A stretch of 53,033 bases of DNA, from assembly GCA_029862185.1 (NCBI GenBank), contig JAOTXX010000021.1:1-53033 (forward strand), read 5' to 3'. Positions 27,221 to 32,387 of this stretch are shown here, piece after piece. The position numbers and the translations under genes are program-made. Numbering within the stretch: position 1 is the first letter of the stretch; the number at the start of each line of letters is the position of its first letter. The stretch is from Myxococcales bacterium (GTDB lineage Bacteria; Myxococcota_A; Polyangia; Polyangiales; Houyiibacteriaceae). Below the pieces are notes generated by a model, which made no database searches, was not told the origin of the DNA, and saw nothing but the letters and a program-made list of their open reading frames with translations.

Positions 27221-28432
27221 TCAAGGCCGCAGCAGCCCGTGCCAGATCGGGAGGCCATCCGCCGGTGCGTCGAGGGCGGGCGTTTGCATCGAGCCGAGGA
27301 TGCATGCGTACGCGCTGAGCACTCGGCTCTCGCGCAGGCGAGCTCGGACTTCGGAGATCGATGCCAGGTCGGCGCCGATGCACTTCAGCGTGGCGCCCAT
27401 CGGTTCGATCGCGCCAAAGGCCTCGTCGATCGTACGAACCGGCACGATCGACACGTTTCGATAGCCGGGGCTCCATCGAACCGCCTGCGCCGAGCGAATT
27501 GCGAGCCCATAGCTCTTGCCTCGAATCAGGGTTCCTTCGACCTCGGCGACACCGCGCCACTGCGTCTGTTCGGCGCCGACCGACGCGGGCAGTGGGCCCC
27601 GAGGCAAGGTCTGACTCATCGGGTCGAGCCCTTCTTCAGCCAGACGAACGGCGAAATCCCTCGCCGATCGTTCGGTGGCAGCCTCGATGAAGACCAGCTG
27701 CGGGGAGAGGCATCCGCGTTGGTCGTAGGCGCAGATGTCGAGTGACAGATTGGCCATGGTATCGCTCCGCTGTGCATCGCCCAGCGCAACGGTATTACAG
27801 TACGCCACACTCACACCGTGCCCGTGAGGGATGAGCGAAGCATGGCCGACGCGCGACGCCATCGCGCCAACAGTCTCGTCGCTGCCGTAGACCGAAACCG
27901 CCTCGGCGCGTTCGACGAGGGCGGTTTCGCAACCAGCATCGCCTCCCGGGAACGCCACGATATCGATAGCCGCACCCAAGGTGGCGTTGGTTCGTCGCAG
28001 GGCGTCCCTCAACATCGTCGGAAACGTGATTTCCTTCGAGGAAGCTTTGACGAGCACTGAAACGCCCAGCAGTAGTGGAACGACGATGCTTCGCACCGAA
28101 GCGGTGAACACATTGCCTGCAAGCACGACGGCCAGCATCGTGATTGGCCCAGACGACTGCCCGCCTTCGAGACTCGCTTTCCGAGCGAGGGCGAGCAGGG
28201 TGTCCTGTCGAATGGTGTCGAGCGTCGTGTCGCTCGCCCAGTCGACCATTGGCGTAGTCAAGCCTGTCGCTTCGGACAGTTCTGGGCCCGCCTGCCGGGC
28301 ATGCAGCTTCAAAGTCACGGCCGCTTCGGCAAGCCAGGCCGCCCGGTCGTCGGTGCTCGCTGCGCGCAGGGCGTGGACTGCGTTCAGAACGGCGGTGGCA
28401 CGACCCCGAATCGTGGCTGCGTCGTCGGTCAA
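27221..28432 (-). CDS. luxC: Acyl-CoA / acyl-protein reductase, LuxC-like
   Basis: The 403-residue product is an aldehyde-dehydrogenase-type reductase that makes a fatty aldehyde from an acyl thioester with NADPH. Cys241 in DQRGCLSPQLVF is the expected active-site cysteine; the Rossmann-like AVVLAGNVFTASVRSIVVPL and IVAFPGGD match LuxC. It starts with TTG at 28432, overlapping the luxE stop in TTGA, so it is translationally coupled. It is the last gene of a three-gene operon with LuxE and an aminotransferase. No luxA or luxB is nearby. The symbol denotes family similarity, not bioluminescence. Confidence 0.88.
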   Translation of the reverse strand: MTDDAATIRGRATAVLNAVHALRAASTDDRAAWLAEAAVTLKLHARQAGPELSEATGLTTPMVDWASDTTLDTIRQDTLLALARKASLEGGQSSGPITMLAVVLAGNVFTASVRSIVVPLLLGVSVLVKASSKEITFPTMLRDALRRTNATLGAAIDIVAFPGGDAGCETALVERAEAVSVYGSDETVGAMASRVGHASLIPHGHGVSVAYCNTVALGDAQRSDTMANLSLDICAYDQRGCLSPQLVFIEAATERSARDFAVRLAEEGLDPMSQTLPRGPLPASVGAEQTQWRGVAEVEGTLIRGKSYGLAIRSAQAVRWSPGYRNVSIVPVRTIDEAFGAIEPMGATLKCIGADLASISEVRARLRESRVLSAYACILGSMQTPALDAPADGLPIWHGLLRP

Positions 28433-29493
28433 CGCGCCCCCAGGGCTTGGTCCGCGGCGAGCGAACAGCCACGCGGTGTCGCACCCGGGGCCCGTCCGAG
28501 CACGACGATCCCGTCCCCGACACGCTGCGCCAAGTCCGCGGTTTGAATGCAGCAAACCGAATCCAAGTTTGCGGTGTCGTCGATTCGGAGGATGCCGACC
28601 GTGTCTCCTTCGACTGGCCGAAGGGTGTCCGGGTCGACCGGCGTTGCACGCACCCAAGGCGGAACCCAGAGCCTCCGAGGTCCTGCCGGGCCGTGAATGG
28701 CTTCGCGCAAGGCCGTCTCGTAAAGCTGCGAGCTGAGCTCTGTCGCTCCAAACTCGTTGATGATCCAGGGAGCGGAGATGCCGTACCGATCGCTGATCGC
28801 CTCGAGCAGGACTTCGGAATCCACTTCACGGGAGCGCCCCTTGTAGCCGCCGGTTTGCATGACTCGGCTCCCGGGGGCGAGCTCGAAGCGCCGTTGGCCG
28901 AGACCGTCCTCGGCATGGACGAAGGCAAACGAGGTGCCGAGCAAGGCGATCGGTTCGCGCGCAGCCTCCGCGCGGCCGAGCGCGTCCGTCAGCAGGTCGA
29001 GGTCCAGCTCTCCTTGGCGCCAGGCCCAGATACATTCGGCCCCAAACCATTCCGCAAATCGAGTCAGCATGTATTCGAGGGAAGAGTCCGGCGCTTCCTT
29101 CTCGTGCGGAGCCAGCATCAGCAGTCGGATCTGGTCGACGTCCGGAAAGAGCATTCGGCGCGCCGCCGCACGGGCGGCGAGGTCATACAAGCTCAGGTCC
29201 TCATACGCATGGACGCTTCGCTCGGACGAGGTGGTGCCCGAGCTCAGGAACACGCGAACGTCCTGTTCTTTCGTGTGGGCTGCAACCCGTCGAAACCGAA
29301 AGACGTCGGTTGGAAGCGCAGGAGGCCAGTCACCCTGGCGTTGCAATCGGCTGTACCCCGGGATGCGGCTCGCCTGCCATGTCGCGAGGTCTTCGATCAG
29401 CGCATCCCGATGCTTGGGATCGACTTCCCCGCCTCTCTCGAAGCGTACTATCATCGCTTCGATGCGGCTCTTGAGGTCGCTGCGGCGGCTCAT
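28429..29493 (-). CDS. luxE: Acyl-protein synthetase, LuxE-like
   Basis: The 354-residue protein belongs to the ANL-related LuxE family, which activates a fatty acid with ATP and holds it as a thioester for LuxC. LSSGTTSSERSVHAYEDLSL is the phosphate-binding motif, and PRGCSLAADQ near the C terminus carries Cys343, the position of the acylated cysteine in LuxE. It starts with ATG at 29493, inside the aminotransferase stop (ATGA), and overlaps luxC at the other end. Together with LuxC it should form a fatty-acid reductase. Confidence 0.88.
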   Translation of the reverse strand: MSRRSDLKSRIEAMIVRFERGGEVDPKHRDALIEDLATWQASRIPGYSRLQRQGDWPPALPTDVFRFRRVAAHTKEQDVRVFLSSGTTSSERSVHAYEDLSLYDLAARAAARRMLFPDVDQIRLLMLAPHEKEAPDSSLEYMLTRFAEWFGAECIWAWRQGELDLDLLTDALGRAEAAREPIALLGTSFAFVHAEDGLGQRRFELAPGSRVMQTGGYKGRSREVDSEVLLEAISDRYGISAPWIINEFGATELSSQLYETALREAIHGPAGPRRLWVPPWVRATPVDPDTLRPVEGDTVGILRIDDTANLDSVCCIQTADLAQRVGDGIVVLGRAPGATPRGCSLAADQALGAR

Positions 29494-30803
29494 CGGCCCC
29501 CTAGCGAAGCTCGCAGCGACGCGACGAAGCCCTCGAGCTGTTCGTCGTTCACAGTGACCGGCGGGGTCAGCTGAATCACGTCGGCCTCTGCGCCTGCCGG
29601 AAGCACGAGGTAGCCGCGTTCGAGGAGCGAGCGACTGACGCGCAAGGCCTGCATGCTGCCCTCCAATTGCAGTCCGAGCATCATGCCTGCCTGGCGTACT
29701 CCGGTCACCGACGGGAGTCGCTCGGCGCGCAGCATCGTAGCGAACGTCTTACCTCGATCGACGGCTCGTTGGGCAAGCTCGTCGCGTTCGATCAACTCGA
29801 TGGTGGCAAGCGCGGCTGCGGAGCCCAATGGGTCCCCGAAAAAAGTACCCGTATGAATCGCCTCGCGGTCCGGGTCGCCCCAGGCGCGCATGACGTCCTC
29901 ACGCCCGATGCATGCGCTGACGGGCAGTCCACCACCCAGCGCCTTGCCTGCGCAAACCAGATCTGGAATGAGGCCTTCGTCGACCGACCTCCACCAGGCG
30001 CCGCAGCGGCCGACGCCGGTGAGAATCTCATCAACGATGAGCAGGGCGCCGTTCTTCTTGCACGCTTGGCCGAGTGCTTCGAGAAAGCCCAGCGGCGGAA
30101 AGCGAACGCCGGCGCGCCCCTGAATCGGCTCGACGATGACGGCGCCAATGCGGCTCCAGTCTTTGGGTAGCGTTTTGAGTGCTGCTTCTACACCGAGATC
30201 GGGGCTGGGCCATGCGGCGAAGTGCACGTCGGACTGCAGTTGCGCCAAGAACGGTTCGCGAAAGCGCTTGGCGAAACCGGACACCGCGAGCGGACCGTAG
30301 TTGAGCCCGTGGTAGCTCCCTTCAAACGCGACCACGCCGGTCTTTGCGGTCGCCATCACCGCTGTCTTGAGCGCCGCAGTGACAGCATCCGCACCGCTGA
30401 GCGAAAGCATGGCCCGCGCTTTCGGCCAAGGAGCTCGCGTACAGAGCTTTTCGAGCAGTTGGATCTTTACATCGGACGGGTGCAGGTCGCCCAGTGCGTG
30501 CAGAAGTCGATCCGCCTGCCGTTTGACGGCTTCGACGACCTCGGGATGACGATGCCCCACGAACGCCACCCCAAATCCCGAGGTGAAGTCGACGTATCGA
30601 TTGCCGTCGGAATCGATCACGTTCGCGCCCTGCGCTTGGACCCAGACGATCGGATCATGACTTGCACCGGTGAGCTCTGCGCGTCGTTTGCGCCGAGTCG
30701 TCAGCGCAGGGCACTCACTGGCCGCGAGGCGTTCTACCCACGATCGACCTGCGGCCGATGGGATTGGGTGTCGAATCGATGGGAGTGCGTTACCGAGCTG
30801 CAC
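29490..30803 (-). CDS. Class III PLP-dependent aminotransferase
   Basis: The 437-residue protein has the class III fold: DFTSGFGVAFVGHRHPEVVE at the start of the core, FEGSYHGL, Asp258-Glu259 (IVDEILTGVGR) and the PLP lysine Lys287 in CAGKALGGGLPVSA. Family members use omega-amino acids, amines, ornithine or glutamate semialdehyde. It starts with GTG at 30803. The gene is first in an operon with LuxE and LuxC, with overlapping stop and start codons, which suggests that an aldehyde formed by LuxC or its precursor is aminated. That is an inference. Confidence 0.88.
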   Translation of the reverse strand: MQLGNALPSIRHPIPSAAGRSWVERLAASECPALTTRRKRRAELTGASHDPIVWVQAQGANVIDSDGNRYVDFTSGFGVAFVGHRHPEVVEAVKRQADRLLHALGDLHPSDVKIQLLEKLCTRAPWPKARAMLSLSGADAVTAALKTAVMATAKTGVVAFEGSYHGLNYGPLAVSGFAKRFREPFLAQLQSDVHFAAWPSPDLGVEAALKTLPKDWSRIGAVIVEPIQGRAGVRFPPLGFLEALGQACKKNGALLIVDEILTGVGRCGAWWRSVDEGLIPDLVCAGKALGGGLPVSACIGREDVMRAWGDPDREAIHTGTFFGDPLGSAAALATIELIERDELAQRAVDRGKTFATMLRAERLPSVTGVRQAGMMLGLQLEGSMQALRVSRSLLERGYLVLPAGAEADVIQLTPPVTVNDEQLEGFVASLRASLGGR

Positions 30804-30868: not shown

Positions 30869-32320
30869 CTATCGGCCAAACGGTTTCGGCTTCCAGGGAT
30901 AGAAGACGAAACCTCGCTCACGCGCTTTGCGGAGCATGTCGTGGCCGTCGATCAGCAACACGTCGATTTCCATCTCGTGCTTCTGGCCGGTCTCGATGAG
31001 CTCCTTGATGATCGCCGTCAAGTTGTCGCGGTAGTTGTCGGTGATCCGTAGGCCGATGGCCGGAGTCGAGCCGCCGCCTTTGCGGGCGACCTCGCAATAC
31101 GAGGCCCACTCGATCTCGAAAAAGCCCCGCAAGACATCGGCCATGGCTTTGAGCCAGTCTTCGTTCGGTGCGTCCCGGAGCTCCACCAGCCTGATTCCGT
31201 CTCCGATCGACGGCACCGGGATGCGTGCGCGGTCTGCCGTGGGTGGCTTCCCGTCGGGCTCCGTGCGCTCCCCCGGAGGTACTGTCGATGCCTTGGCTTG
31301 GGGTGTCACAGGTGGCGGCACGACCGGTGGGATCGGGGGTAAATTCAGTTTCTGGGGCTCCAGCGAGGTTAGGACCTGAGCGGCTGGCGCGGTCGGCAAG
31401 TCAGAGTTGAGCTTTGGGGCGCTGGCGCTCAACGGATGCTCCGAGCCACCTTCCTTTGCGTCCCCGGACGTGACGATCATCGAAGAGGTGATCGGCACGG
31501 ACTGCCGTCCAGCCGTCGGGGCGATGCTCGCCGCGCCATAGGTTCCGCCTTCACCGGGCTGAGCCGAATCCGCCCGCACCTCTTTGATGTTTGCACCGGG
31601 CGGCTCGCTCTTAGCCTTGTGTGCTGGGCGTGAGCTCTTACGCGTCGTCGGCGGCGCTTTGTCTTTCTTCGGCGCCGCTTGGCTGGGCTTCAGCGCTGCG
31701 CGCGGCTGGGTCGGAGGCTCGCTGTCGTATGGAATCGAATGCGGCTGCGTAGGCAGCTCACTCAGGCGCTCGATCTTCTCGACCTGGCCGGGCGCCATGC
31801 TGTACACGGTCGAGATCTGCTCGGCGGGCGGAGGGAACGAGCTTTGTGCCGCAGGCTTTGAAGGCTTCTCCGAGCTCGGAGGAGGAGGTCGCGACGTACG
31901 GAACGGACCGGTACTGTCCATCTCGCGAAGGATCGACTTGAGCTCGTCACGCTCGTACTCCAGGGAGTGCGCCGTGCCGATGTCGATCACGACGAAGGCA
32001 TACTCGCGCGTCCATGCATGGCGCAGGATGTCTCCGCCAATCGCGCGGTGGGTCGCTACCGTCCCATCTTTCTCCAGCCAATCGAACTGCTTCGCTGCGC
32101 TTTTGAGCTCGGTCTCGCAGCTGAACACTGCGAGGGCCTCTTCACCCGCCGCGTTGATCAGGGTTCGGAACCCCTCGGCGCGCGGTTCCCAGGTTGCCAA
32201 CCAAACCGGTCTCAGCGAAAGCGCCTCGAGGGCTTCGGACTTCGGCCCCGGACCTTTCGAACCCGCGCTCAGCAGAATGCGAAACGCATCGCTGCCACGA
32301 TCATCTAGTGGGCTCTCCAT
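30869..32320 (-). CDS. SseB-like protein with long Pro/Ser-rich linker
   Basis: The 483-residue product starts MESPLDDRGSDAFRILLSAG. The N-terminal ~110 residues (PVWLATWEPRAEGFRTLINA, ALAVFSCETELKSAAKQFDW) and the C-terminal ~120 residues (GIRLVELRDA, ERGFVFYPWKPKPFGR) each resemble half of the SseB family. About 230 residues between them are low complexity, rich in Pro, Ser, Lys and Ala. SseB proteins enhance serine or sulphur enzymes in E. coli, but the family role is unclear. There is no signal peptide. The gene lies 65 bases upstream of the aminotransferase operon on the same strand. Confidence 0.75.
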   Translation of the reverse strand: MESPLDDRGSDAFRILLSAGSKGPGPKSEALEALSLRPVWLATWEPRAEGFRTLINAAGEEALAVFSCETELKSAAKQFDWLEKDGTVATHRAIGGDILRHAWTREYAFVVIDIGTAHSLEYERDELKSILREMDSTGPFRTSRPPPPSSEKPSKPAAQSSFPPPAEQISTVYSMAPGQVEKIERLSELPTQPHSIPYDSEPPTQPRAALKPSQAAPKKDKAPPTTRKSSRPAHKAKSEPPGANIKEVRADSAQPGEGGTYGAASIAPTAGRQSVPITSSMIVTSGDAKEGGSEHPLSASAPKLNSDLPTAPAAQVLTSLEPQKLNLPPIPPVVPPPVTPQAKASTVPPGERTEPDGKPPTADRARIPVPSIGDGIRLVELRDAPNEDWLKAMADVLRGFFEIEWASYCEVARKGGGSTPAIGLRITDNYRDNLTAIIKELIETGQKHEMEIDVLLIDGHDMLRKARERGFVFYPWKPKPFGR

Positions 32321-32387
32321 CCCGATCACACCATCCGTTTCACATTGTAATCGTGAACGCGGACCGGAACGCAAGTTTTTCAGACCC

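Follow-up and report, generated by a model that had tools for sequence, protein, structure and literature searches.

The class III aminotransferase (AT), LuxE-family acyl-protein synthetase and LuxC-family acyl-thioester reductase described here belong together as a genuine enzyme set that is conserved in Myxococcota. The best explanation for the set, which we hold with somewhat more confidence than doubt, is a putative carrier-free pathway in which three enzymes would convert a carboxylic acid to a primary amine. The genes were found in a metagenome-assembled genome of 4.29 Mb, with a completeness of 100% and a contamination of 3.45%; its closest named relatives are uncultured members of the Myxococcota that resemble Polyangiaceae/Sandaracinaceae. 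They lie on the minus strand of the window, that is, the whole stretch of 53,033 nucleotides that was analysed, in the order AT, LuxE and LuxC, with AT being the first gene of the three. The features are as follows:

30869..32374, minus strand: conserved open reading frame without a family match, 65 bp upstream of AT
29490..30803, minus strand: class III aminotransferase (AT), 437 residues; Pfam Aminotran_3, 1.2e-87
29490..29493, minus strand: ATGA, the AT stop codon overlapping the LuxE ATG start, read from the sequence
28429..29493, minus strand: LuxE-family acyl-protein synthetase, 354 residues; Pfam LuxE, 8.8e-12
28429..28432, minus strand: TTGA, the LuxE stop codon overlapping the LuxC TTG start, read from the sequence
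27221..28432, minus strand: LuxC-family acyl-thioester reductase, 403 residues, TTG start; Pfam LuxC, 2.2e-29

The initial annotation had described these genes as an operon joined at ATGA and TTGA junctions, and both junctions are present in the sequence. The family assignments also held, as all three proteins exceed the Pfam gathering cut-offs: AT matches PF00202 with 294.7 bits (cut-off 30.5), LuxE matches PF04443 with 45 bits (cut-off 24.9) and LuxC matches PF05893 with 103 bits (cut-off 21). The active-site residues that had been named are in place and, in the combined alignments, invariant over the phylum. These are the PLP-binding Lys287 of AT (70/70), the acyl-accepting Cys343 of LuxE (80/80), which also has the SSGTT motif and Lys218, and the catalytic Cys241 of LuxC (59/59), which sits in the sequence YDQRGCLSP and becomes Cys242 when translation begins one codon earlier. 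The absence of luciferase, which had been claimed as well, stands for the neighbourhood, where a profile scan of the neighbouring proteins found neither luxD nor luciferase genes.

The set is widespread in the phylum. A LuxE search of 58 relatives gave a match in 54, and when 379 genomes from across the phylum were sampled, the LuxE profile had matches in 299. By group, these comprise 86 of the 92 genomes of the order (93%) and 208 matches, as a count of rows, in other classes; other orders of the same class gave only five matches, all weak. The initial annotation was to be refuted by a lack of conserved co-occurrence in other genomes, and the gene order shows that the genes do co-occur. AT was found in 39 of 40 fetched loci of the order (Polyangiales-type) and lies directly upstream of LuxE in 38; in L067 a 1.4 kb gap separates the two genes, and in L048 AT was not found. 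Among 40 further loci, chosen mostly from other classes, AT adjoins LuxE in 31, and in the other nine it is apart from LuxE or was not found, some of these being contig ends. Four-base stop-start overlaps are possible at the AT/LuxE junction in 53 of 71 loci and at the LuxE/LuxC junction in 37 of 67, counts that depend on start codons which are not proven. In addition, three of the loci from distant lineages (L211:8351-10453, L214:7860-10712 and L215:8848-11238) encode LuxE and LuxC as a one-frame fusion immediately behind AT. The gene order, repeated together with the overlaps in dozens of loci, is far beyond chance, and the coupling of the three genes that had been proposed is borne out. The divergence of AT, LuxE and LuxC is also strongly correlated (r 0.82-0.89 over 53 loci, reached in 0 of 2000 permutations), as expected for a jointly inherited unit, a pattern that vertical descent alone would give as well.

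The set is usually single-copy. A second AT-LuxE set is present in the same assembly at the end of another contig (L040; G000:C151:1-8752), with a LuxE that is ~68% identical and with the same open reading frame upstream as in the window; it is either a duplicate or, given the contamination rating of the assembly, a contaminating relative. Other arrangements were also seen. In one distant lineage (L220:971-1996), LuxC is inverted relative to LuxE and AT and points towards them, and the operon can thus break up without losing its genes. Two loci (L197 and L200) have LuxE and a LuxC-type gene, with AT absent within ~18 kb. A contig labelled as uncultured Pseudovibrio (L105) carries a myxobacterial-type LuxE-LuxC pair with AT nearby, which may reflect erroneous binning or a contig from a symbiont.

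Beyond the three genes, the neighbourhood says little about the product. The open reading frame upstream of AT has no match in Pfam, NCBIfam or PADLOC; its middle part is of low complexity and its C-terminal part is conserved. It adjoins AT in numerous loci within the order and is absent from the distant set. In this order the transcript may begin with it, but it is outside the phylum-wide core. A metallophosphatase gene faces the operon in loci of the order, and the neighbours in distant lineages are generic (SUF and folK). These conserved neighbours were considered as a clue to the product and set aside, since they look like general synteny. A defence system was likewise rejected, with no match in the PADLOC scan, and no viral contigs were found.

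LuxE and LuxC resemble the fatty acid reductase of luminous bacteria, whose LuxC-LuxE complex has been solved (PDB 7xc6), in fold and in catalytic cysteines. The LuxE family profile matches the solved Photobacterium LuxE (7xc6_E) at 6e-28, with Cys343 aligned to the cysteine of its GCS sequence, and the LuxC profile matches 7xc6_A at 1e-17. The predicted LuxC structure (pLDDT 93) has the same LuxC as its best PDB match (TM 0.82), with ordinary aldehyde dehydrogenases ranking behind it. Neither protein reaches the NCBIfam equivalog for bioluminescence, LuxE scoring 37.6 bits against a cut-off of 550 and LuxC 25.1 bits against 750. The LuxC of the set is shorter than that of the lux reductase, and the identity of LuxE to a lux-operon LuxE is only ~21%. 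In a tree of 49 LuxE proteins, in which some rows are on long branches so that deep placement is not firm, the LuxE of the phylum groups away from lux-operon LuxE and with proteins encoded in plasmid operons of Pantoea, Azospirillum, Priestia, Niallia and Lactobacillaceae. These are also the closest LuxE proteins outside the phylum, with 32-35% identity.

The eight plasmid loci in question (L231, L232, L233, L234, L235, L236, L237 and L238) come from Pantoea, Lactiplantibacillus, Levilactobacillus, Azospirillum, Priestia and Niallia. In the Pantoea, Lactobacillaceae, Azospirillum and Priestia loci, those in which the neighbours were read, LuxC follows LuxE and is itself followed by a short-chain dehydrogenase-type (SDR) gene. 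As for transport, the loci of the lactobacilli carry a nucleobase-type permease (NCS2), and in Priestia and Azospirillum there is an ABC transporter whose binding protein is of the NMT1/THI5 type. A TPP riboswitch lies upstream at gathering score in seven of the eight loci, including two in tandem ~2.1 kb upstream of the match in Niallia; in the eighth, from Priestia, it scores 49 bits (E 1.4e-8). Judged from these features, the plasmid operons probably reduce a thiamin-related acid to an alcohol. The acid is plausibly the thiamin-pyrimidine carboxylate and the alcohol HMP, a candidate route of which no description was found in the literature searched. Like the set in Myxococcota, these operons add to LuxE and LuxC a third enzyme for which the aldehyde could be the substrate; they differ in that this enzyme is an SDR, which would give an alcohol and not an amine, and in having the TPP riboswitch and, in several, a transporter. 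Due to the kinship of LuxE to these thiamin-linked operons, the main reason for assuming a long fatty acid as the substrate is removed.

The initial annotation had called for an analysis of the aminotransferase subfamily, and this placed AT in a distinct subclass. The predicted structure (pLDDT 89) has the GABA-AT/ArgD fold among its top matches, and AT scores best with the ArgD, GABA-AT and putrescine-AT families and not with aminomutases. It remains below the curated cut-offs for TIGR00707 (277 against 410 bits) and TIGR00700 (232 against 507 bits). When AT was aligned with GabT, ArgD and LysJ, Arg230 was found in place of the glutamate of the GEGG motif, and this arginine is present in 70/70 sequences. 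We take this position to be that of the Glu switch, E211 in GabT numbering; its spacing to the PLP lysine is 57 residues, the same as in GabT. The position of the usual carboxylate-binding arginine, R398 of GabT, is Gln411 in AT, and the residues listed there for the other ATs include Gln, Thr, Ser, Ala, Gly, Asn and Glu, with no Arg. Putrescine aminotransferase, unlike AT, retains this arginine. The position of GabT R141 is Leu167. The switch glutamate and carboxylate arginine of ArgD/GabT/OAT-type transaminases are thus both replaced, and it is for this reason that AT is considered a distinct subclass. Without the usual carboxylate-binding arginines, the amino donor is uncertain and ordinary glutamate/2-oxoglutarate chemistry is not assured; Arg230 at the switch position could still hold a glutamate or alanine donor. 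The genome also has separate ArgD, BioA and HemL proteins, and AT is therefore not a missing housekeeper. Replacement of argBCD by the set was ruled out by the host's own ArgD.

In the proposed pathway, LuxE would use ATP to form an acyl-adenylate and would then move the acyl group onto its own Cys343. LuxC would accept the acyl group on Cys241 and reduce it with NAD(P)H to an aldehyde, which AT would aminate by means of the PLP on Lys287; Arg230 may stand in for the usual arginine and hold the amino donor. Here, we infer the order of the reactions, the action of AT on the LuxC aldehyde and the donor. The initial annotation had put forward the same sequence of acid, aldehyde and amine. It stands as a prediction and as the simplest reading of the set, with precedents in TamA/TamH (PMC9594044) and PigE (PMC8341465).

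The set works like these two systems but is outside their family. TamA and TamH convert a fatty acid to the amine of the tambjamine YP1 tail in Pseudoalteromonas tunicata (PMC9594044). As in the proposed pathway, the acid is activated by ATP, the thioester is reduced to an aldehyde and a class III transaminase yields the primary amine. Unlike the set, TamA loads a pantetheine ACP, and TamH is an acyl-ACP-reductase-type reductase fused to the transaminase; in the set, LuxE would be its own carrier, LuxC is the reductase, and the genes are unfused and occur widely across the phylum. PigE of the prodigiosin MAP pathway (PMC8341465, PDB 4ppm) also pairs a thioester reductase with a class III transaminase acting sequentially on one aldehyde, but does so in a single fused protein with an acyl-ACP-reductase-like domain and without LuxE. 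Both systems use pantetheine or CoA thioesters, as opposed to a LuxE self-carrier and LuxC-type reductase. Consistent with this, the PigE/TamH model NF053554 is matched by AT in the aminotransferase part only, at 233.6 against 850 bits, and not as the fusion.

More distant parallels exist as well. In ArgB-ArgC-ArgD (acetylornithine) and LysZ-LysY-LysJ, a carboxylate is also converted to a semialdehyde and then to an amine, and AT is distantly ArgD-like; there, activation is by phosphorylation and the kinase and reductase are unrelated. The flagellar glycosylation island of Aeromonas (PMC7874193) has a luxE-luxC pair without luciferase, which is located amid ACP, ketoreductase and glycosyltransferase genes and is not coupled to a class III aminotransferase. 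In the lux operon it is luciferase that consumes the aldehyde; in the set, from which luxD and luciferase are missing, AT would do so. In the literature outside subscription papers, no description of an AT-LuxE-LuxC operon was found, and a survey of conserved myxobacterial clusters gives five BGCs, none of this kind.

Several other explanations must be weighed against the carrier-free route to a primary amine. The initial annotation suggested long-chain amines, in which case LuxE would load a fatty acid, LuxC would produce a fatty aldehyde and AT a fatty amine for a membrane lipid. Characterised LuxE and LuxC do use fatty acids, TamH aminates C7-C14 aldehydes (PMC9594044), and the lack of a distal-carboxylate arginine in AT is what a lipophilic substrate would allow. 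We nevertheless regard this as unlikely, because LuxE is far from the lux protein and groups with thiamin-linked LuxE, and lipid genes are absent among the neighbours examined; a small acid, soluble or with a ring, is no less likely to be the substrate than a long fatty acid. The kinship of LuxE with riboswitch-linked operons could instead be taken to mean thiamin-pyrimidine salvage, where the pyrimidine carboxylate would be converted to aminomethyl pyrimidine (AmMP), from which TenA would make HMP. AmMP is a known salvage intermediate (PMC5635689), and several of the related operons have nucleobase or NMT1/THI5 transporters. However, a TPP riboswitch is absent near the set in all 14 sources of the phylum that were checked, the only one in the host lies upstream of thiC, and a clear TenA is found in 8 of the 58 relatives as compared to 54 with LuxE. 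The myxobacterial set is, then, probably not for thiamin salvage, and we give this explanation very little credence.

It is also conceivable, though to our minds quite improbable, that AT acts before LuxE, making an amino acid that LuxE and LuxC reduce to an amino aldehyde, or that AT is an aminomutase with an amino aldehyde as its substrate. AT is indeed encoded first, and the loss of both canonical carboxylate arginines would suit an enzyme whose donor is something other than a normal alpha-amino acid. Against this, the families closest to AT are not aminomutases, and a transaminase is the simplest partner for the aldehyde made by LuxC. Finally, an aldehyde-derived natural product, which had been suggested as well, is unlikely, as a set that is usually single-copy and near-universal in the sampled genomes of the order looks like part of core metabolism and not like an occasional natural-product cluster. 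A fuller version of the preferred route can be offered tentatively, at less than even confidence: an undescribed, carrier-free core pathway of Myxococcota to a primary amine that is part of a lipid, polyamine or cofactor, using a subclass of AT whose donor-binding arginine has shifted to the Glu-switch position.

The findings suggest that LuxE and LuxC, known mainly from light emission, are a general module for converting an acid to an aldehyde, and that the third enzyme beside them would set the outcome: light, alcohol or amine. There is also a demand for biocatalysts that turn a free acid into an amine with no need of a carrier protein. For the Myxococcota themselves, a phylum studied mainly for its natural products, the fact that most genomes have this set, usually in single copy, implies a core amine that has so far gone unnoticed.
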